A stretch of DNA of 64,000 bases. Origin: Gimesia chilikensis (GTDB lineage: Bacteria; Planctomycetota; Planctomycetia; Planctomycetales; Planctomycetaceae). Both the position numbers and the translations under genes were made by a program. The DNA lies in NCBI RefSeq assembly GCF_007744075.1, contig NZ_CP036266.1:8150564-8214563 (forward strand), given 5' to 3'. Each line of letters starts with the position of its first letter. Position 1 is the first letter of the stretch. Shown here one piece after another: positions 23,930 through 33,702 of the stretch. Under the pieces are notes generated by a model. It was not told the DNA's origin and ran no database searches. It saw only the letters and a program-made list of their open reading frames with translations.

Positions 23930-25297
23930 TTACTCCTTCGGAGCAGGGTCCGAAACGACGAAATCCTTGTAAGGTTCCATCTCCGCCGTGATGACCTCCC
24001 ACGATTTCCCCATTTCGCGGAACTGGTTGAAATCCTTCGGCTTATAGGAAAATTCGAGTTCCGGCGTTTTGATCTTCGCGTACCCCTTTTCAAAGCAGGA
24101 ATGCATGGCGGCATCCAGGGCACCCGTCATCAGCAGGGTCCGCTCACAGGGATAAGGTTCCTCCTTGTTCACGAACAGATATTGAATCGCGTGCGAGAAG
24201 GCGCGGAACAGATTGCGGTTGCCCCAGGGACCGGGGAAGAAGGTCGTCGCTTTCGGCGCCGGCTCCCCTTTGATCGAACAGGCGAAGTTCCAGCGAACCC
24301 CGTTAGAGCCAATCCGCAGCATCGTGGCCCGGAAGCCGTCTTTATACTCCAGCAGAATCCCGTGCGGTTCGCGCGTCCCTTCACTGCCGATCGGATCGAA
24401 CAGCCCCCGCTTCGTATCGCCCAGCTCGGCCTGCATCGCGGCTTCGGCCAGCTTCATCGACCAGCGGCCTTCCTTACCCGCTTTGATCAGGTCGTCCCCC
24501 TTGAGGAACTGCACGCTTGAAATGCCGGTCTCACCCCCTTTGCGGAACTCGACCATCGACTGCAGCACTTCCAGGCCGTGGATGTCGTACTTCTCGATCG
24601 GCCCGCCGTGAATGGAGACGGCGTCTTCGATCTCGGTGCCGTAAGGCAGCTCCAGCGGAATCGTGCGCTCCGCGAGGGGCACCGAACTGCCGACCATCAT
24701 CGGGAAGCCGTACTTCCGCGAGGTGTCATACATTTCGCGGGCCCAGTCCCAGCGGTAGGAAAAATGCTTGTCACTGAAGACCGGCACAAAGCGGTCGGAC
24801 TGCTCCATGACCTTGACGATCGCATCGAAGAACCGCTTGCGGGGATACTTGGTCTGCCCGTACTTCGTATCGGGATAGTCGCCGTGCTCGCCAATCGACA
24901 GCACGGCGTCGACCGCCAGTTCATCGCCGCCGTTACAGAGCGCTTCAGGGATCGTTTTGTAAATGGGAATGTCGAACTGCTTCGCGATGCCGCGGGAGAG
25001 ATCGCGGTCGGTAAACTGATCGCCGTAGAAGGAAATCACATCGCACTGCGGCTCAAGCAGTTTTCCATTAAACAGGTAAGGTCCCAGGAACGGATGCAGA
25101 ATGTGATAGGCGTGCGACAGATAAAAGCACTGCGTATAAATGGCAGCGACCTGCGGTCGTTTCGTTCCGGCGGCAGCCTGCCCCGGATTCAACCAGTTGA
25201 GTCCCGCGGTCCCCGCCAGGGCGGCGGCTCCCAGTTTCAACAGATCACGGCGGGAGAGCGATTCAGACAAAGGGTGCGGCAGGTTCGCAACGGACAT
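23930..25297 (-). CDS. TAT-exported uncharacterised protein
   Basis: 455 residues. The leader 'LSRRDLLKLGAAALAGTAGL' is a twin-arginine signal, and the ATG at 25297 has AGGAG 8 bases upstream. The body has no domain I can name with confidence. It has an oxidoreductase-like layout: 'KRPQVAAIYTQCFYLSHAYHIL', 'CDVISFYGDQFTDRDLSRGIA', 'GGDELAVDAVLSIGEHGDYP' and 'VFSDKHFSYRWDWAREMYD'. The pattern is shared by a planctomycete-specific group of TAT proteins and is distantly like Gfo/Idh-type proteins. It is probably periplasmic. Confidence 0.65.
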   Translation of the reverse strand: MSVANLPHPLSESLSRRDLLKLGAAALAGTAGLNWLNPGQAAAGTKRPQVAAIYTQCFYLSHAYHILHPFLGPYLFNGKLLEPQCDVISFYGDQFTDRDLSRGIAKQFDIPIYKTIPEALCNGGDELAVDAVLSIGEHGDYPDTKYGQTKYPRKRFFDAIVKVMEQSDRFVPVFSDKHFSYRWDWAREMYDTSRKYGFPMMVGSSVPLAERTIPLELPYGTEIEDAVSIHGGPIEKYDIHGLEVLQSMVEFRKGGETGISSVQFLKGDDLIKAGKEGRWSMKLAEAAMQAELGDTKRGLFDPIGSEGTREPHGILLEYKDGFRATMLRIGSNGVRWNFACSIKGEPAPKATTFFPGPWGNRNLFRAFSHAIQYLFVNKEEPYPCERTLLMTGALDAAMHSCFEKGYAKIKTPELEFSYKPKDFNQFREMGKSWEVITAEMEPYKDFVVSDPAPKE

Positions 25298-25482: not shown

Positions 25483-26871
25483 TTAAGATTCGTTCCTCTT
25501 CCATGGTACATCTTTTATTGCTGATTGAATGAATTCTACATCAAGACTGCGACAGATTATCTTTCCTTGATAGCCAGCAGTTGCAAGAATAGCTTGAGCC
25601 AGTAAACCATTAATCTGGTACCACAAATCGATTCGCTCATTTGAGCCTGTAGGCCGAGAAAGCAGTTTCTCTACTTTTTTAGGCATTCCATGAACTAGAG
25701 CATTTCGAACATCCACAAGCACACAAATTAAATCATCCAAGTTAAATTCTTTAGCATATGCGTTTAGCTCAATACTCTTTGCCGGCAGACTTGTTGGGAT
25801 TGAATAGAGTGACAACAATAGTCGAATCTTGTCCGATGCTGGCAATGCCTTAAAGCCATTTACACTACATAATCCGCGTTGTTCAACCACCTCAAACCAC
25901 GCTAGTGTCTCTAAAGCTGCTTGCTGTAACACTATCGACCCATCGATCAGACCAGCACTCTGCTCAGCTTCAATGTACCAACCGATTCCAGTAGTTAATA
26001 CTTCATATCTCTTTGGGTCGTTGTACGCGTGGTACAAACAGCGAAACAGCTCCTCAAAAGTTCCTTTTACCATAGAATAGTACCAGGATAATCCTGGTGG
26101 ATTCATACTGGCCATAGTCACTCGAGGGAAAACTCGATTTAAATTTCCTGTTTCTGAATAGCCCCACGGACCAACCAAGCCCACCCAACGTCCGCACATA
26201 AAAGAAAGAGTTTTATGTAAGATTGAATCAATCAGATCAATGTCAGGATTCGAACCAATATTCTTAAATTTAACTTCGATAACATGTGTAAAAACAAATG
26301 GAGATCTAACATTTTTCTTCTTATCACTGAGTTGATCAATCACTATTTCAAAGCCATCAATTTTTGTTTCAGTCCTTCCTTTGTAGATAGAGTTACTGCC
26401 TTGAATAAATTTCCCATGTAAGCCTGGGCCATTGATTACCAAATACTTTATTGAATCGAAGAGCGAATCAGATTCGATATGATCAACAACATGTCCCGAA
26501 AAAAATGTTCTCGTCTTATTTTTATTGATTGCTGTTACATTCACAGACATAGCACCAACAGGGTCACCACAGGACATTTCATAAATCCCCGCTTCCTCGG
26601 TGTTATTAAATACGTTATGTATCTCAGCTTGATTTGGTTTCTCATTAATTTCAAATTCAAAAATCACACCTGGCTTTGGAGCTATTTCAAATAATATTTT
26701 CCCAATTCCAGATATCGATATTTCATCTCTAGAAAGAGTCGTCGCTCCAGACCAGAACTCTATCAGCCCTGTCAATAGATCATACTCACAAGGTGGAGTG
26801 AGCCTCTCTTCAAATTTTGTGGTTCTTTCAACTGACGATGGTTTATCCACAATTAAAGCTTTCTTCGTCAA
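25483..26871 (-). CDS. HEPN-motif protein, ApeA-like (candidate defence gene)
   Basis: 462 residues in AT-rich DNA unlike its neighbours. The N-terminal part is beta-rich ('YDLLTGLIEFWSGATTLSRDEISISGIGKILFEI'). The C-terminal helical part contains 'LICVLVDVRNALVHGMPKKVEKLL', a canonical HEPN R-x4-H ribonuclease motif (RNALVH). This arrangement fits ApeA-type proteins, where a beta domain is followed by an HEPN RNase used in abortive infection. The start is a TTG at 26871, with no ATG in the open frame upstream. A related-function family cannot be excluded, and activity is inferred from the motif only. Confidence 0.65.
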   Translation of the reverse strand: MTKKALIVDKPSSVERTTKFEERLTPPCEYDLLTGLIEFWSGATTLSRDEISISGIGKILFEIAPKPGVIFEFEINEKPNQAEIHNVFNNTEEAGIYEMSCGDPVGAMSVNVTAINKNKTRTFFSGHVVDHIESDSLFDSIKYLVINGPGLHGKFIQGSNSIYKGRTETKIDGFEIVIDQLSDKKKNVRSPFVFTHVIEVKFKNIGSNPDIDLIDSILHKTLSFMCGRWVGLVGPWGYSETGNLNRVFPRVTMASMNPPGLSWYYSMVKGTFEELFRCLYHAYNDPKRYEVLTTGIGWYIEAEQSAGLIDGSIVLQQAALETLAWFEVVEQRGLCSVNGFKALPASDKIRLLLSLYSIPTSLPAKSIELNAYAKEFNLDDLICVLVDVRNALVHGMPKKVEKLLSRPTGSNERIDLWYQINGLLAQAILATAGYQGKIICRSLDVEFIQSAIKDVPWKRNES

Positions 26872-27012
26872 AACACGATAAGTTAAACGTTGAATTCAAC
26901 CGCTTTAAGAAAACAGAGGATACTATTACGTGACTTTCATCTTATGCTTTCTTTTAACTCAATAAGTACCATTCCCAAATAAATCACTAGTTTGAGTTTA
27001 GGATTATTCTCG

Positions 27013-27561
27013 ATGGGTTTGATTTCAAAAAATATTTATCGGACCTTACAAGGCTATAATCTTACGAAGTTCGATGGACCAATTCACCGAGATCGCGGTT
27101 TCGATAAAAATAACGCACAACTATCTGAAGCTAAAAATACTCTTTATCAATTAATCGGTGATGATCAAGTAGTGTGGTTGGAGCAGTATCATCCAAAACT
27201 CTTTGACATTCATATCGATTGCTATATACATGAAATTCTTGTAGATCAGCGTGATATCATAGCTATCATTGATACATTCATCTGGAATCATTTGATTGGA
27301 AATTCACGTTATATTCCAGAAAAAGCACATGAAGTACTGAGGGATACGCTTGCGTTCAGTGAAGTTGAAGATGATTTTGATATTGTTCAATTAGAGGATA
27401 GATACTTAGCAGAAAATCTTCCTCCTAAAAATCAATTGTGGTCTAAGGTAGTTAAACCAGATATTTCTGATGATACGGACCAAATTCTTACTCAATTCCC
27501 ACTTAGGTATTCTCAATTTCTCAGTATTACGAGAGTTACTAAAAAGATGGTGACCAAATAG
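27013..27561 (+). CDS. Uncharacterised protein of the AT-rich island
   Basis: 182 residues, AT-rich codons, no signal peptide or membrane segment. The ATG at 27013 has AGGA 9 bases upstream. It contains 'WLEQYHPKLFDIHIDCYIHEILVDQRDIIAIIDTFIWNHLIGNSRYIP' and an acidic 'EVEDDFDIVQLEDRYLAENLPP'. I do not recognise the family. It is divergent from the HEPN gene (about 140 bases between starts) and may share a bidirectional promoter with it. A half copy of the island repeat begins 14 bases after its stop. Confidence 0.55.
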   Translation: MGLISKNIYRTLQGYNLTKFDGPIHRDRGFDKNNAQLSEAKNTLYQLIGDDQVVWLEQYHPKLFDIHIDCYIHEILVDQRDIIAIIDTFIWNHLIGNSRYIPEKAHEVLRDTLAFSEVEDDFDIVQLEDRYLAENLPPKNQLWSKVVKPDISDDTDQILTQFPLRYSQFLSITRVTKKMVTK

Positions 27562-27574
27562 AAAACTAGAGCAC

Positions 27575-27597
27575 ATAAAAGGTGTCAGGAACCGTTT
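27575..27597 (+). repeat. Half-copy of the island hairpin repeat
   Basis: ATAAAAGGTGTCAGGAACC followed by GTTT matches one arm of the inverted repeat at 30524-30595. It follows the stop of the 27013-27561 gene. Confidence 0.55.
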
Positions 27598-27619
27598 TCA
27601 GACGCTCCCTGTTCTATCT

Positions 27620-28012
27620 CTAATCTTCCGGCCATAAATCGTCTACCAGCGTGCCTTTCATTTTTTCTACCATTGTCTGAGTCAACGCCAGCCAATCGCC
27701 TGAAATATCATCAACTGATTCAAAGGGCGTTCTCACACCGTACTCATGATACAAGTACCCATCAGTTAGGTTTTTACCATAATCGGTCATTACTTCTGAA
27801 ATGACTTCAGCTGCATGTCTTCTGGTAATTGCCATCAAAACACACACCTTCCCTGCCTGGCCCTGTTCGCCAGCATCATCAACGGCAATGCTGTGTTTTT
27901 TCTGAAAGCAATAGGTGTGCAAGATAATCATACAAGCCAGCGCATCGGTTTCGCTGGATTTCTTATCAAGTACGGACTTGCATAACTCAACGTACAATTC
28001 GTGCTTCGTCAT
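27620..28012 (-). CDS. Small uncharacterised protein, 130 aa
   Basis: 130 residues from the ATG at 28012. It is soluble and acidic with 'ETDALACMIILHTYCFQKKHSIAV', 'QAGKVCVLMAITRRHAAEVISEVM' and 'DISGDWLALTQTMVEKMKGTLVDDLWPED'. I do not recognise it. Size, acidity and tandem placement with other unrelated small proteins resemble polymorphic-toxin immunity genes, but no toxin is identified here. Confidence 0.5.
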   Translation of the reverse strand: MTKHELYVELCKSVLDKKSSETDALACMIILHTYCFQKKHSIAVDDAGEQGQAGKVCVLMAITRRHAAEVISEVMTDYGKNLTDGYLYHEYGVRTPFESVDDISGDWLALTQTMVEKMKGTLVDDLWPED

Positions 28013-28078
28013 GGTACACCATTCATTATCACCCAGCCTGCAGGGAATAAGAAGTAAAGTCAAAATCAGCCAGTTGAA

Positions 28079-28888
28079 TTAGATTTCTTTCCACATCCCT
28101 TCTTCTGCAATGTATGGCGTAATCATCTCATTCGTGATTTCAAACAGTTCCTGACGATCCTTGCGTTTAAAGTATTTCTTGTACCTGGTATCGATCAACA
28201 TGAGAGCTTTGAGGCGCCCTTTAGCAACCATCGGCACTTTGATTGCCTGCTTCTCTATAATCGGTACCTCTGGCAGTTCTACGGACAGTGGGGAAATCGA
28301 TGTACTCAAACGCCAGGATTCCAGAATCGCATCAGGAGTACTAACCAGTGCTCCATAGTCCCCATTCGGGAACCCAAAATTTGACAGTTGTTTATACCAG
28401 TCTTCATTGTATTTGAGAGGGAAGCGATTCTTTTTCCAATCGAAGTTCTCATTCACAAAGAACAAACTCAATCGATTGATTTCTATAAATTCTGTTTTTC
28501 TATCAAGTGGATGATCGGCGACAGTATTAGGAGATCTCCCCCAGACCTCTAACTGAAGTGGTACCAGGTTATGTCGAATGCTGTAGTATGCAGCTTTGAT
28601 TTTCTTTGCCAGGTTTCGATTTTGTTTTCCTAAAGAAAGGGAATAGTACCCCGCGTGCTGGCGTTGCCAGTTGATGCGTCCATATTCAAAAGGATGGTCA
28701 GGGTCATCACTTAATTGTTTCAACACCTTCTCAGAAATGGCTGTGTGAAAATATGCATCTCCTGGTAGAAAATAGGGTGCAGCCAGTACATGCCTGTCAG
28801 CGGCCATCCCCCTCTGACAGAAGCAAAACAGCATCAGCATCAAACTTGTAAAATATTTGTATCGAGCGTGCATGTAATTCTTCCCCAT
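28079..28888 (-). CDS. Secreted uncharacterised protein
   Basis: About 269 residues with a short basic-hydrophobic signal peptide ('RYKYFTSLMLMLFCFCQRGMAA'). The body is rich in aromatic and basic residues ('FEYGRINWQRQHAGYYSLSLGKQNRNLAKKIKAAYY', 'FFVNENFDWKKNRFPLKYNEDWYKQL'). No family is recognised. The start may also be the ATG at 28873, which has GGGGAAG upstream. It is on the same strand as the 27620 gene, 66 bases before it. Confidence 0.55.
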   Translation of the reverse strand: MGKNYMHARYKYFTSLMLMLFCFCQRGMAADRHVLAAPYFLPGDAYFHTAISEKVLKQLSDDPDHPFEYGRINWQRQHAGYYSLSLGKQNRNLAKKIKAAYYSIRHNLVPLQLEVWGRSPNTVADHPLDRKTEFIEINRLSLFFVNENFDWKKNRFPLKYNEDWYKQLSNFGFPNGDYGALVSTPDAILESWRLSTSISPLSVELPEVPIIEKQAIKVPMVAKGRLKALMLIDTRYKKYFKRKDRQELFEITNEMITPYIAEEGMWKEI

Positions 28889-28899
28889 ATTACTCATCA

Positions 28900-28922
28900 G
28901 TCGCATTAAAGGAGTCAGGAAC
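28900..28922 (+). repeat. Degenerate half-copy of the island repeat
   Basis: ATTAAAGGAGTCAGGAACG resembles the GGTGTCAGGAACC arm of the repeat with two changes. It lies just upstream of the 28079-28888 gene. Confidence 0.35.
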
Positions 28923-28937
28923 GAATGGCACTGTCAT

Positions 28938-29405
28938 CTAATCCCAGCCTTCAAATGGATACTGAGTTCTTGAGACGATACCCTCATACTCAAGTGTGTC
29001 CTTGATCTCAGAGAGTGCTGCATCTCGAACCGCGTCACCATGATAAGTTTCTCCAGCCTGGGGATCGTGGTATTCGCCATCAGTATGGATGGCAAGTTCT
29101 GCGGCACAAAGACATAACAGAGCGAACTCGGTAGCAGTTCGTCCCATGGCTGAGCGAAAAAAAATGTGCTGCCCTTCAATATCAACTTCAAAGCCAGAAA
29201 TGGCAGGTGACAACAAAGCCGCATCAATCAATTCAGCAGGTATCGAAATCACCTTGAATGGCAGGAAACCGCCGCTCCAGCCTTCTGGGGAGAAGTCAGG
29301 ATATATTTCGCAATCGATGCCATGTGGTATCAGGAGCGCTGGCCATAGTTCCCGCAGGTTGTCCGGAACTGTTCGACCGCAACAAACGCTTAATTCAAAG
29401 GCCAT
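28938..29405 (-). CDS. Small uncharacterised protein, 155 aa (immunity-like)
   Basis: 155 residues from the ATG at 29405, which has AAGGG 8 bases upstream. An open frame continues 28 codons further upstream but only through the adjacent repeat, so that extension is discarded. The sequence is acidic, without signal or membrane segments: 'LRELWPALLIPHGIDCEIYPDFSPEGWSGGFLPFKV', 'AMGRTATEFALLCLCAAELAIHTDGEYHDPQAG' and 'SEIKDTLEYEGIVSRTQYPFEGWD'. It is similar in style to bacterial immunity proteins; the family is not identified. Confidence 0.5.
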   Translation of the reverse strand: MAFELSVCCGRTVPDNLRELWPALLIPHGIDCEIYPDFSPEGWSGGFLPFKVISIPAELIDAALLSPAISGFEVDIEGQHIFFRSAMGRTATEFALLCLCAAELAIHTDGEYHDPQAGETYHGDAVRDAALSEIKDTLEYEGIVSRTQYPFEGWD

Positions 29406-29436
29406 CGCGGAGCCCTTCAGAGAAAAAAGGGGCCAT

Positions 29437-29495
29437 AAAAGATGGAAGGAACCTTTTGTAGACACAAATCTATAAACGGTTCCTGACACCTTTTT
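29437..29495 (+). repeat. Island hairpin repeat, copy A
   Basis: About 59 bases. The right part (CTATAAACGGTTCCTGACAC then CTTTTT) is identical to copy B at 30532-30588. The left arm is degraded (AAAAGATGGAAGGAACC), so the hairpin is weakened. It lies 91 bases beyond the stop of the SUMF1-like gene. Confidence 0.7.
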
Positions 29496-29585
29496 CTACC
29501 CTTTTTAATCTCCCAATCGCATCCGCTGTAGCTCCCTCTGGGTGAAGAGAAGTCACCTAGAGAAAATGCATGCGAAAGGGGGGAG

Positions 29586-30497
29586 CTATCCATGGACTTC
29601 AATGGTCCGACAAAAACGAAAGTTACGTGATTCAGCCGCTCCTGCGATTGCCATACTTCTATGAAAACTATCATACCCGCGAGCAACACGTTCGTTATCG
29701 ATATTGATCAGGTCGACGGGATCGATCAGTCGTCCTTGAACCTCCTCATCATAAGAATAAGCATCAAATACCCACTCGTTGCTAAACATATCCAAGTCAT
29801 AGACCCCGAAATTGTTTGGTAGCTCAGAACCAACCGGCCAGGGCCGTCCAATATTGATCTTCCAGTCGGGGCGGCGCCTCTCATTTCCGTAAAAATAAAC
29901 TGTTGTCGTTCCCGCCCGGGCAACCCATTCCCATTCTGCACTGGTCAATAAACGGTAGCCTGGACCTCCGATAATTTCGGCATCGGCTTCGTAAATGCTC
30001 CCATTTGATTCCCTGAATAAATATTCACCAAATCGATAATAAGCAGGCAGCCCCTCGCGTTCGCTCATGTTGTTGCAGGCCTCGATGCAATCGTACCAGC
30101 TAACACCTTCGACTGGAAACGATCTCGTATCAAATCCCTCGATGTGTGAAGCAAGACATCCTGACTCTGCATAATGGCTTGGATTCACTCCCATGAGTTT
30201 CCAATACTGCTCCTGTGTTACTCGGTGAATCCCAACATACATTGGTTTCGTCAAAATACAATCGAACCTCGGCTCCTCGATTTTTGACAGCCCCTGACGT
30301 TCTAATTCCTGGTTGATCTCATCAGAACCACCACAGAGAAATTCGCCCGGCGGAATTAGTATGAACTCTATGCCCAGTGAATTCGTCGCGTGCAGCGGAA
30401 CATGACATCCCTGCGCCCATTCTTCCTGTGCGGAAAAAGCCACTCCGTGGTCAAATGGGATCTTCAGACGCGCGAATTCCAGATTTTCAGAAGTCAT
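29586..30497 (-). CDS. SUMF1 / formylglycine-generating-enzyme-like domain protein
   Basis: 303 residues. The C-type-lectin-like SUMF1 fold is shown by 'FILIPPGEFLCGG', 'FDCILTKPMYVGIHRVTQEQYWKLMGVNPSHY', 'FPVEGVSWYDCIEACNNMSEREGLPAYYRF', 'YRLLTSAEWEWVARAGTTTVYFYGN' and 'NFGVYDLDMFSNEWVFD'. The C-terminal region 'AAESRNFRFCRTIE' does not keep the paired cysteines and sequence of true formylglycine-generating enzymes. It is therefore probably a binding or effector domain, not a sulfatase-maturing enzyme. It has no signal peptide and is flanked by direct copies of the island repeat. Confidence 0.85.
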   Translation of the reverse strand: MTSENLEFARLKIPFDHGVAFSAQEEWAQGCHVPLHATNSLGIEFILIPPGEFLCGGSDEINQELERQGLSKIEEPRFDCILTKPMYVGIHRVTQEQYWKLMGVNPSHYAESGCLASHIEGFDTRSFPVEGVSWYDCIEACNNMSEREGLPAYYRFGEYLFRESNGSIYEADAEIIGGPGYRLLTSAEWEWVARAGTTTVYFYGNERRRPDWKINIGRPWPVGSELPNNFGVYDLDMFSNEWVFDAYSYDEEVQGRLIDPVDLINIDNERVARGYDSFHRSMAIAGAAESRNFRFCRTIEVHG

Positions 30498-30523
30498 GAT
30501 GCATCCCGGTATTTAAAATGATA

Positions 30524-30595
30524 AGGACCATAAAAGGTGTCAGGAACCTTTATAGACACAAATCTATAAACGGTTCCTGACACCTTTTTCTACCC
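30524..30595 (+). repeat. Island hairpin repeat, copy B
   Basis: Arms of 17 bases (AAAAGGTGTCAGGAACC, 30532-30548, and GGTTCCTGACACCTTTT, 30572-30588) are perfectly complementary. An inner TTTATAG/CTATAAA pair extends the stem to about 24 pairs with one bulged C. It ends in TTTTTC, so it could also terminate transcription. It lies 27 bases upstream of the SUMF1-like start. Confidence 0.8.
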
Positions 30596-30711
30596 GATTT
30601 ATCTAATGAATATCCTACATAGATTTTCATCTTTTAATCTCGTTCTATAAGAAGGAAACAACTCACTGACACATCCTGCTGTCCCTGTAAGTGCCTCTGT
30701 CCGAAACCTGA

Positions 30712-31542
30712 TTACGATTCTGATGTGAAGCCGGATTGCCAGATTTTTTTATATGCCTTTGATTGAAGCACCTTCTCTAAGTACTTCAAATGATTCTGAC
30801 AGCCCTTTTCGACCAAAAGTGACCTTGCCATTTCGATATGCCCGCGAATCAGCTGTTCGTCGGTTGCTGCACACCACGACTTTCCATTGTAATAGATGCC
30901 TGTTCTCTTTAATTCGTCAGAGTGTCTCGCAAATAAGACACGTATCAGGAATTCGATTACATTCGCACTTTGTTCAGGGCTTACAATGCGGTAGAGCCAA
31001 TTATTTGCGAGGTAATGGAAACATGTCAGGATTGCCAGCTCTCCTCCGATCGCCTCTTGCATACAGTAGAGGATGACGTCAGGCAAGAGCTCTGGAAAGG
31101 TTGCATTGAGCTTGATTTCTCCCTCTTCAGGAATCGAAAGTCCAGGAGAATATTGGGAGACTGCATTCCAAAACAAATCACAATAAATAGACAGTGTCCG
31201 GCTAACAATCTCACTGTCCTTGCATTTTTCTTCTTCCTCAATTTCATCATTGATATAAAAAAACTGGAAGAGATCTCGCCAGATCTCATAACGTATCGCT
31301 GCCTGCTCCATTCCAGCTTCAATCGCGTCCGGGATTACTGAAATTGCAGCATAAAACGATTCCTCGAAAATAACGCTGAATGAAGATGCAACATTTGCTT
31401 CGAATGGTTTTATCTGATCAACCTCACCCGGGCTTCGCACCTGTAGTACATACTCATGCATATCTTCCTCGATGGGAAGCTGCATTTGCTCAATGTACTC
31501 TCTGAGGTCAGAAATTCGATTTTTAATATTTGTAGCAGACAT
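30712..31542 (-). CDS. Uncharacterised alpha-helical protein, 276 aa
   Basis: A soluble acidic helical protein of unrecognised family. Visible parts are an N-terminal coiled-coil-like stretch ('KNRISDLREYIEQMQLPIEEDM'), a long helical middle ('YEIWRDLFQFFYINDEIEEEEKCKDSEIVSRTLSIYCDLFWNAV') and 'GHIEMARSLLVEKGCQNHLKYLEKVL'. No signal peptide is present. It lies in the accessory island on the minus strand, with a 214-base gap to the SUMF1-like gene and the repeat in between. Confidence 0.5.
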   Translation of the reverse strand: MSATNIKNRISDLREYIEQMQLPIEEDMHEYVLQVRSPGEVDQIKPFEANVASSFSVIFEESFYAAISVIPDAIEAGMEQAAIRYEIWRDLFQFFYINDEIEEEEKCKDSEIVSRTLSIYCDLFWNAVSQYSPGLSIPEEGEIKLNATFPELLPDVILYCMQEAIGGELAILTCFHYLANNWLYRIVSPEQSANVIEFLIRVLFARHSDELKRTGIYYNGKSWCAATDEQLIRGHIEMARSLLVEKGCQNHLKYLEKVLQSKAYKKIWQSGFTSES

Positions 31543-31559
31543 TTAAGAATGGTTCTTTT

Positions 31560-31691
31560 TTACTGTCTATGGACAGAAAAGGGGGCAGTAATTTCTCCGA
31601 GGGGAATCTCTGCTGGAAAATCTAACAGTCTAAGATACGCGGATCCCTCACATCCCTCATGTTGTATAAGCTGAATCTTTTTTTCAGACAT
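31560..31691 (-). pseudogene. Possible truncated small protein remnant (DUF2283-like N-terminus)
   Basis: A 43-residue open frame from the ATG at 31691. It contains 'EGCEGSAYLRLLDFPAEIPLGEITA', resembling the start of DUF2283-type small proteins ('aYlrLpd.P') common in planctomycetes. The usual C-terminal 'DLYLDFD' part is missing. No ribosome-binding site is visible. It may be a decayed gene of the island; the assignment is from memory and weak. Confidence 0.3.
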
Positions 31692-32090
31692 AATTAACCC
31701 GGCTTTTCTTGGACATTTTGTAGCAGGTGGACGCTTAAAACCGCAGACAGAAACAGAACACAATCCCCATTTTTAGATCCTGATAGAGAGCTAAACAGGG
31801 AGATTTAAAAATGCCGCAAATCATGAAATCAGGATAAATCGAAGACACTTTGAATTTTGTTGATCAGAGCCAATTCAATTTTACGGTATACAGATTGGAA
31901 GCACAGGTATCTACCTGGAAATTGAAATTCGATACCCCAAAAGACCTCTCGCAGTACTGGTATTCACAGAAGCCGAACCCTCTGGAGTTTCCAGCTGCGT
32001 TTAATTTCTTTCTTCTGAGTAGGGTTGACGTTCCTCAAATATATGCCTGTTTTCCAAGCCTGAATCCCCTAATTCTATTTTCCAATTCAA

Positions 32091-32095
32091 AGGAG
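32091..32095 (+). promoter_or_regulatory. Ribosome binding site AGGAG
   Basis: AGGAG sits 8 bases before the ATG at 32104 and fixes the start of the two-repeat protein. Confidence 0.7.
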
Positions 32096-32103
32096 ATGCG
32101 CTG

Positions 32104-32478
32104 ATGCCTGACGTACGTAATGATTTGAATGGCTTGCGAGTCCAACTGCCGGGAAATCCTGCAATTTATCTGATCGACGAGGGCTGTAAACGACACATCC
32201 CTAACCCATCTACCTTTGACAATCTGTTTCGTGACTGGTCTTTTACACAAGACCTGGATATCGATGAGATTCAGACCGGATCACCGATTTCTGATGGTGC
32301 AATCCTCGCGCAGGGAAAAGGACGTGCCGAGGTCTATCTGATTGATGGCGGCATGAAACGACATGTCCCCTCACCTCAATTAATGGATCGGTACAACTTT
32401 CGCTGGCCAACTGATCGCATTGATGTTGCTCTGATTGATGCGATTCCCACGGGACGCCCGATTGAAGCTCCTCACTAG
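32104..32478 (+). CDS. Small two-repeat protein with YLIDxGxKRHxP motifs
   Basis: 124 residues, no signal peptide. It consists of two tandem repeats of about 50 residues. Each has 'Y-L-I-D-x-G-x-K-R-H-(I/V)-P' ('AIYLIDEGCKRHIPNPSTFDNL' and 'EVYLIDGGMKRHVPSPQLMDRY') followed by a Trp-bearing strand and 'DIDEIQTGSPI' / 'DVALIDAIPTGRPI'. The repeat is known from uncharacterised bacterial proteins; I cannot give a function. It ends 12 bases before a clear hairpin. Confidence 0.75.
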   Translation: MPDVRNDLNGLRVQLPGNPAIYLIDEGCKRHIPNPSTFDNLFRDWSFTQDLDIDEIQTGSPISDGAILAQGKGRAEVYLIDGGMKRHVPSPQLMDRYNFRWPTDRIDVALIDAIPTGRPIEAPH

Positions 32479-32489
32479 AAGAATCAACC

Positions 32490-32528
32490 AGAAACAGGCA
32501 GCGAGAGAATAGATCACTGCCTGTTTCT
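32490..32528 (+). terminator. Hairpin terminator-like structure after the two-repeat gene
   Basis: AGAAACAGGCAG (32490-32501) pairs perfectly with CTGCCTGTTTCT (32517-32528) around a 15-base loop, 12 bases beyond the stop. It has no long T-run outside the stem, so terminator strength is uncertain. It could also act for the convergent transporter gene. Confidence 0.5.
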
Positions 32529-32601: not shown

Positions 32602-33702
32602 CTAATGCGTTTCCGTTGCAGGGACGGCCGCCGGTGTTGCTGCGGCAGCAGCGGGGGCGGGGGGATTGGGCTTGAAGCGGGTCACCAGAACCACGCCGCA
32701 GGCTCCGATCAGAATCGTCGTGATCAGCTGACCGAGTGGGAAACCTTCCGGGGCCGACCAGTTGTTGGCGGAGAAAATCGGCATCAGAAAGACGAGCGTG
32801 TTGACAGCGGGCGTTCCTGAGAAGACCAGCGGAGGCACGGTCAGCGGTCCGGTGGGCCCCAGGCGGTTGATCGCCAGGATGATACACAGGTTACCGCCGA
32901 CGCCGAACAGCCCCGCGATAAGGGCTTTCACACATCCGTCCACAGAAAACTGCTCGCTGACCGGCGCACCGCTCAGAAACAGCACATAGATTCCCAGCGC
33001 CACCACGGCAACCAGGAAGTAGCCTTCGCCGACATGCGTGAGCGCTCGCAGGCTCTTGCACAACTTGTTCTGGCCTTTCATCGCCACGCTGCCGGAATGG
33101 ATCAGCGCGACGTAAAGCCCCCAGCTGAGGACCGTCCAGGCAGTTGCGATTTTCCAGGCCTGGTTCGGCGCCGCGGACCCGTGATGTCCCGTGGCGGCGA
33201 TTTCTTTAAGACCGATCATGTGCCAGCCGAAGACCAGCAGCAGAATGAAACCGATCGCGAAGAGCGCCTTGTATTTCACCGGCCAGCTCTCCCTGGTCGG
33301 AGGCTTCGTGATGAGCGCGTAGAGGATACTCACCAGGGGAACCCCGCAGAACACAAGCGGCATCACCTGGCCGTGTCCGCTGGGACAGTACTTCAAAGCA
33401 TAGGAAAGTGTCACCGCGCCACTGGCAACGAACAGACCGGCGATCCGTCCGATCCGGTTCCCTTTCGGCGTGAAATCTCCGTCGTCGATGCCTTTCTGTT
33501 TCAAGATTGGCAATACGACGTACCGCACCAGCAGCCAGGCCACCAGCAGGTAGGAGATGCCGACTCCGATGGCGGCCATCCAGTTGTTGCCCTGCAACGC
33601 CCCGGTGGCTCTGCCGAACCGGGAGCCGTACAGCCCCCAGCAAATCCAGACGCCGACGACATAGGTGAACCAGAAGCCAAAAATCGCGTGAGCTATATTC
33701 AC
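32602..33702 (-). CDS. 10-TM membrane protein, DMT-like transporter
   Basis: 366 residues. About ten transmembrane helices are visible, in two halves of five. 'PLVFCGVPLVSILYALIT' (TM4) and 'PLVFSGTPAVNTLVFLMPI' (TM9) are clearly homologous, showing an internal duplication as in the drug/metabolite transporter (EamA-type) superfamily. The C-terminus is a low-complexity Ala/Pro tail. It probably transports a metabolite across the inner membrane, substrate unknown. Such 'hypothetical membrane proteins' are conserved in planctomycetes. It is a single gene, convergent with the 32104 gene. Confidence 0.75.
   Translation of the reverse strand: MNIAHAIFGFWFTYVVGVWICWGLYGSRFGRATGALQGNNWMAAIGVGISYLLVAWLLVRYVVLPILKQKGIDDGDFTPKGNRIGRIAGLFVASGAVTLSYALKYCPSGHGQVMPLVFCGVPLVSILYALITKPPTRESWPVKYKALFAIGFILLLVFGWHMIGLKEIAATGHHGSAAPNQAWKIATAWTVLSWGLYVALIHSGSVAMKGQNKLCKSLRALTHVGEGYFLVAVVALGIYVLFLSGAPVSEQFSVDGCVKALIAGLFGVGGNLCIILAINRLGPTGPLTVPPLVFSGTPAVNTLVFLMPIFSANNWSAPEGFPLGQLITTILIGACGVVLVTRFKPNPPAPAAAAATPAAVPATETH

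Follow-up and report, generated by a model that had tools for sequence, protein, structure and literature searches.

An AT-rich site of accessory-gene turnover in Gimesia chilikensis carrying a YopA-family protein with a HEPN motif

The window analysed here is a 64,000-nt stretch of Gimesia chilikensis DNA (contig NZ_CP036266.1, positions 8,150,564 to 8,214,563), in which positions 25,483–32,528 form an island of small genes including one for a YopA-family protein with a HEPN motif. With high confidence, this stretch is an accessory-gene turnover hotspot located between two chromosomal genes in closely related Gimesia species. About 7 kb with a GC content of 0.43 separate the left border gene, named A_ox here (23930–25297, minus strand), from the right border gene K (32602–33702, minus strand), which looks transporter-like by eye. 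The island itself has a GC content of 0.426 versus 0.548 for the remainder of the window, and in 7-kb sliding windows having no overlap with the island (n = 429, step 100) the minimum is 0.527, the mean 0.549 and the standard deviation 0.011. The GC content at third codon positions is 0.28–0.47 in eight island genes compared to 0.71–0.77 in four flanking genes. A drop in base composition relative to both sides had been claimed in the original prediction, made from the sequence alone, and is confirmed by these values.

The same prediction described the gene families as unrecognisable, which is true of all but one of the nine island open reading frames (ORFs): the sole family above the cut-off in the Pfam scan was FGE-sulfatase (PF03781, E 9.9e-18), found in gene G (29586–30497, minus strand), which codes for a stand-alone FGE/SUMF1-like domain protein of 303 amino acids (aa). 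All NCBIfam matches of the island ORFs were under the cut-off, and the PADLOC scan of the island proteins, proposed as a check together with the prediction, gave nothing firm, the top match having an E-value of 0.043. No methylase, helicase, ATPase, transposase, integrase or known immunity family was found among the nine proteins in the Pfam scan, which recognised no toxin family between the genes either, and restriction-modification (R-M) genes were detected among them neither with Pfam nor with PADLOC.

The gene of the YopA-family HEPN protein is the first after A_ox (25483–26850, minus strand) and codes for 455 aa when read from a GTG; the ORF is open to 26871, and the homologue alignment makes the GTG at 26850 the more likely start, just as it places the start of gene F at 29405, both being corrections to the earlier gene calls. 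Gene C (26992–27561, plus strand; 189 aa, or 182 from ATG) has a GC content of 0.346, and is present in 2 of 297 genomes of the class including its own, where a second locus codes for a 40% relative. Gene D (27620–28012, minus strand, with the ORF extending to 28063) encodes a small acidic protein of 130 aa from ATG, and gene E (28079–28906, minus strand) a secreted-looking 275-aa protein, judged by eye from its N-terminus, of an accessory planctomycete family represented in 33 of 297 genomes including its own. F (28938–29405, minus strand) is an acidic protein of 155 aa, resembling immunity proteins in size and charge, with 23 homologues and a predicted model of high confidence (predicted local distance difference test score of 94.0), which occurs in 6 of 397 class genomes including its own. 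The acidic 276-aa protein H (30712–31542, minus strand) is an ORFan, since of 620 candidates scored only the protein itself reached E ≤ 0.001. I (31560–31763, minus strand) is a probable remnant of a gene in the relative G009, where the ORF has 77 aa, as 170 bp match at 95% and residues 5–64 of 67 at 87%. The last gene, J (32104–32478, plus strand), encodes 124 aa with two copies of a YLIDxGxKRHxP-like motif noticed by eye and no family above the Pfam cut-off. The HEPN gene and D–H thus share the minus strand, and C and J are on the plus strand. The small proteins are mostly acidic, as had been predicted, with isoelectric points of 4.9 for D, 4.3 for F, 4.7 for both H and the FGE-like protein, 5.0 for J and 5.3 for C; the statement fails for E, which is basic (9.3).

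The repeats noted in the original prediction are present as well. There are four copies, at least 74% alike, of a 19-nt direct repeat together with matching inverted arms. One repeat copy (27574–27602, plus strand) lies at the left end of the block formed by D and E, another with two core mismatches (28904–28923, plus strand) between this block and that of F, an inverted pair with one degenerate arm (29434–29494) where block F ends on the right, and an inverted pair with arms 95% complementary (30529–30588) between G and H. The palindrome GGTGTCAGGAACC occurs in five exact copies in the 8.29-Mb single-contig genome, four of them inside a 3.0-kb stretch of the island, and is found in 14 of the 17 genus genomes with a maximum of 29 copies in G014. 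Its 16-base form was found in at least 119 stretches of genome contigs, with many phyla among the matches listed. Three regions from relatives (L052, L059, L065) each contain an ORF of 227–232 aa that matches PF01797, a RAYT-like (REP-associated tyrosine transposase) family, and has the palindrome on both sides as inverted copies separated by about 730 bp. Because the palindrome bounds this element in relatives and its 16-base form is so widespread, the island copies are read, from sequence, as repetitive extragenic palindromic (REP)-type repeats and not as cassette sites. One such element, in G016 (L065:351–2229), lies beside a gene resembling SMI1-type immunity genes and a deaminase-like toxin tail, as recognised by eye.

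To follow the site in the genus, the A_ox neighbourhoods of 16 relatives were searched with 12 window proteins, the sequence past A_ox covering 13–15 kb except in L038 (10.2 kb), L033 (8.4 kb), L034 (6.5 kb) and L042 (3.9 kb). With the own genome included, A_ox is present in all 17 genomes and K in 4 of the 17 at E ≤ 1e-60. A_ox of G001 is split into two pieces, and among the other 16 genomes a stop is flagged only in G004 (one TGA). Island genes are located at the site in four of the 16 relatives and their combinations differ, the site being without them in the remaining 12. The HEPN gene is there in G009, G010 and G011 (four genomes with the own one); G009 additionally has F and an I counterpart, and G005 has D and E, so that F and the D–E pair are each in two genomes with the own one. 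G009 and G010 have the HEPN gene without D, E, G and H, and G005 has D and E without the HEPN gene. The neighbourhoods of the 15 relatives other than G005 contain no D. The site of G001 is near-empty, with about 1.08 kb from A_ox to K containing an ORF of 178 aa and two copies of the repeat, and in six of the 16 relatives (L029, L030, L035, L039, L041 and L042) a gene read as isocitrate dehydrogenase directly follows A_ox. Other relatives' sites contain unrelated inserts, some of them transposase-like by eye. The G009 insert codes for a protein that exceeds the cut-off for SUKH (PF09346, E 4e-6) and for a DUF4241-like protein under the cut-off, and that of G010 for a YCII-like protein, also under the cut-off. 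An AT-rich accessory island, as originally proposed, is therefore borne out by low GC and variable content, the locus being neither present in all relatives nor similar to its surroundings in composition.

The genes shared with relatives at this site are similar in blocks. The D and E block (27582–28897) matches G005 at 96.9%, with 94% and 97% identity for the two proteins, and block F (28934–29439) matches G009 at 97.0%, the protein being 96% identical. Between the genome studied here (G000) and G009, the synonymous distance (dS) is 0.50 for the HEPN gene versus 0.06 for the adjacent A_ox; between G000 and G005 it is 0.09 for D and 0.06 for E versus 0.18 and 0.11 for the flanking A_ox and K. 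These unequal distances of the HEPN gene and of D and E indicate gene exchange at the site, and the dS of F (0.06) fits vertical descent. The start of the D and E block lies no more than 1 nt from the first base of the repeat in both G000 and G005. In G000 the four cargo blocks (HEPN, D and E, F, I) have eight internal ends, and a repeat is found no more than 14 nt from three of them, which uniform placement would give with a chance of about 0.0008; the F block's far end lies 1 nt from the repeat in G009 and 39 nt from it in G000, and the ends of the HEPN and I blocks are not at repeats. In G005 (L032), about 110 bp from upstream of A_ox recur past a 197-aa gene (approximately 372–486 and 1136–1247 of the oriented region), resembling a duplication around an insert.

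The HEPN protein shares 24% identity over 94% of its length with YopA of phage SPbeta (E 2e-16), and protein P0002 of the own genome has precomputed labels PF26308 and PF27216 (“YopA family protein” in RefSeq), neither of which is listed in the Pfam scans made here. A candidate RNase of the HEPN kind had been predicted, and this proves well founded: the motif RNALVH is present, and R389, N390 and, after three residues, H394 (numbered on the 462-aa ORF) are invariant both in a 24-row alignment and in a diverse 20-row one, which includes the SPbeta and E. coli members. The 20-row alignment also keeps an upstream acidic residue, E321, unchanged in every row, without the customary Ex3[KR] pattern, as position 325 is W. 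HEPN was not detected in the protein with the PF05168 model and Pfam, and the protein has no match at E ≤ 1 among the Pfam and PADLOC profiles, which should include one for the defence protein ApeA, so that no Pfam family at this threshold suggests an N-terminal NTPase domain. In the predicted model the N-terminal part is beta-rich and the helical C-terminal part carries the HEPN motif. It is right to call the window protein a YopA-family member with a HEPN motif and a candidate RNase; for a role in defence the chances appear about evenly balanced.

Relatives of the protein are found in various surroundings. In E. coli, where WP_001565355.1 is a YopA protein, a YopA piece occurs in 19 of 5,426 genomes, and in nine of them at 80% or more. 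Three chromosomal copies are each part of a recombinase island that follows ssb and has genes for a helix-turn-helix (HTH) protein, type I modification (M), specificity (S) and restriction (R) subunits, two DUF262/GmrSD-type proteins and an M48 protein. One IncY plasmid copy, P1-like by eye and also after ssb, is accompanied by HTH, M, S, two DUF262 and R genes, and a second by HTH-like, M, S and two DUF262 genes followed by IS30. Two cyanobacterial plasmid loci (L256:2893–13730 and L255:3301–13174) have been found: the Nostoc plasmid carries a methylase gene, a small gene, yopA and a helicase gene, then EVE and viperin genes, and the Planktothrix plasmid a methylase gene, a small gene, yopA, a gene for a sigma-70-annotated protein that scores with MzaA, and SNF2. 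Both methylases have type IIG as the best profile and also score with DrmMI, and both helicases score with the HKD+Snf2 candidate profile and DrmD. No R-M gene is annotated in the SPbeta, Oscillatoria, Crinalium and Methylophaga stretches. Planctomycetes with YopA make up at least 17 of 397 class genomes and at least 6 of 392 in an overlapping draw from the phylum. Away from the window site, 3 of 15 planctomycete loci have an R-M match: in G008 (L234:5431–13468) the gene is flanked by hsdS and hsdR in a type I locus, and in L222 and L229 the match is MmeI. The same MmeI is found at 92% and 75% in viral contigs L242 and L243, and they also carry a recombinase 98% identical to the PF00239 protein of L229; in the 12 kb examined of L222 the recombinase was not found. 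In another locus (L231:6224–12220), the gene lies between two genes read by eye as gyrA and gyrB.

One may suppose that YopA proteins form a class of their own among HEPN RNase effectors, serving as backup suicide enzymes for R-M systems and also travelling alone. Jointly, this reading covers type I loci (the E. coli ssb-site island and hsdMS-YopA-hsdR of G008), type IIG/MmeI planctomycete islands and the methylase-YopA-SNF2 loci of cyanobacterial plasmids, and the lone window copy would sense through its beta-barrel N-terminal domain. We regard it as tentative, with rather less than an even chance. R-M matches occur in 3 of 15 planctomycete YopA loci versus 0 of 40 control loci (p 0.017); three controls (L036–L038) hold window-site YopA copies, and moving them to the test side gives 3 of 18 versus 0 of 37 (p 0.031). 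Counting L222 and L229 once gives p 0.095, comparison with the 20 displaced controls only gives p 0.07, and the majority of planctomycete copies are not beside R-M genes. Some R-M queries derive from the test loci, and the test loci span 10.7–20 kb, the displaced controls being 15 kb long. YopA loci are only weakly enriched in R-M genes compared to the controls, and the probability of the backup role was lowered slightly because three control loci hold YopA copies.

As for the island as a whole, it may be suggested to be a heterogeneous polyimmunity locus, with orphan immunity genes directed against polymorphic toxins and the HEPN gene as a passenger. The small acidic proteins, the strong differences between close relatives, the SUKH protein and the DUF4241-like protein under the cut-off at the G009 site, and the failure to recognise a toxin family in between are consistent with this, and they make the originally predicted immunity-like nature of the small proteins plausible. 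For the antidefence role that the prediction also mentioned, nothing was seen either way, no search aimed at it having been made. On the other hand, none of the nine window proteins matches an immunity family, E is basic with a signal-like start, the FGE-like and HEPN proteins do not belong to immunity families, and C and J are oppositely oriented, so this is a somewhat unlikely account of the whole. Less likely still is decaying or neutral foreign DNA, a mobile-DNA graveyard without selected function: remnant I, the repeats, ORFan H and the low GC would suit it, but the comparable genes are open and apparently constrained, with ratios of nonsynonymous to synonymous distances of 0.19–0.27 for the HEPN gene, 0.23 for E, 0.19 for F and 0.35 for D. 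A single defence or conflict system, in which the HEPN and FGE-like proteins, D, E, F and H act jointly, is very improbable despite the strand shared by the HEPN gene and D–H and the low GC all along the island, given that the parts do not co-occur in G005, G009 and G010, F and C are found in so few class genomes and H is an ORFan. The undescribed system of co-inherited parts envisaged in the original prediction is not supported because the parts do not co-travel at the site, and the island contents are a mosaic rather than one machine. Finally, an integron-like cassette array with the repeats as recombination sites is hardly credible: palindromes do lie in intergenic positions and some blocks end at repeats, but in relatives a transposase element with PF01797 has this palindrome as its inverted termini, the 16-base form is widespread and no integrase family was found among the nine island ORFs.

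The explanation we favour, and consider likely, is a recombining hotspot with a stand-alone candidate defence RNase and orphan immunity-like genes. Single genes or small blocks would enter and leave the site by recombination, with REP-type palindromes of a RAYT-like element marking some of the block borders and probably acting as short homology or nicking sites. Judging from HEPN biochemistry, the YopA-family protein is most likely a metal-independent RNase, silent before infection, which would be sensed by the N-terminal part or, where present, by a neighbouring R-M complex; the triggered RNase would then cut RNA and halt growth, as the R-M neighbours of some relatives also suggest. The other small genes are best regarded as orphan immunity or conflict genes acquired one by one rather than subunits.

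Turnover hotspots, HEPN RNases and REP repeats are already known kinds. prrC is situated within its R-M locus. The PrrC/RloC RNases, as presented in part of PMC3710099, share the HEPN motif with the window protein and the location within R-M genes with the YopA of G008, placed between hsdS and hsdR, but the window protein differs in having a beta-rich N-terminal part with no NTPase domain recognised and no R-M gene among the scanned island ORFs. The backup HEPN effectors of bacteriophage exclusion (BREX) and BREX-related systems, to the extent covered by the relevant portions of PMC12839542, are comparable to the Nostoc and Planktothrix plasmid loci, where the putative RNase is beside a methylase and a helicase, while the island has no methylase, helicase or ATPase family in the Pfam scan. 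Heterogeneous polyimmunity loci, going by sections of PMC3482391, resemble the island in variation between close relatives, small acidic proteins and no recognised toxin in between, and differ from its mixed cargo with no recognised immunity domain. According to a portion of PMC2817692, every RAYT gene has REPs in inverted orientation on both sides, as has the ORF with PF01797 in the relatives of G. chilikensis, and the difference is in copy number, which is low here (5 exact copies and at most 29 per genus genome) compared to the usual >100. SPbeta YopA, called “uncharacterized” in the part of the 2019 genome paper (PMC6435635) consulted, has the RN-x3-H motif and near full-length homology in common with the window protein and differs in its phage-genome context with HTH and RES-domain neighbours. 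The word YopA is absent from the main texts of PMC3710099, PMC12839542 and PMC13092281, and no function was stated for it in the open-licence literature searched, with supplements excluded and YopA not queried as a sole term. Turnover hotspots are common; in this case very close relatives are available for taking the site apart, and some of the block ends coincide with a palindrome. YopA is a named, Pfam-labelled family, and its position next to R-M genes in E. coli, on plasmids of cyanobacteria and in part of the planctomycetes leads to a testable prediction, namely that YopA would be an R-M-coupled RNase of the abortive-infection type.

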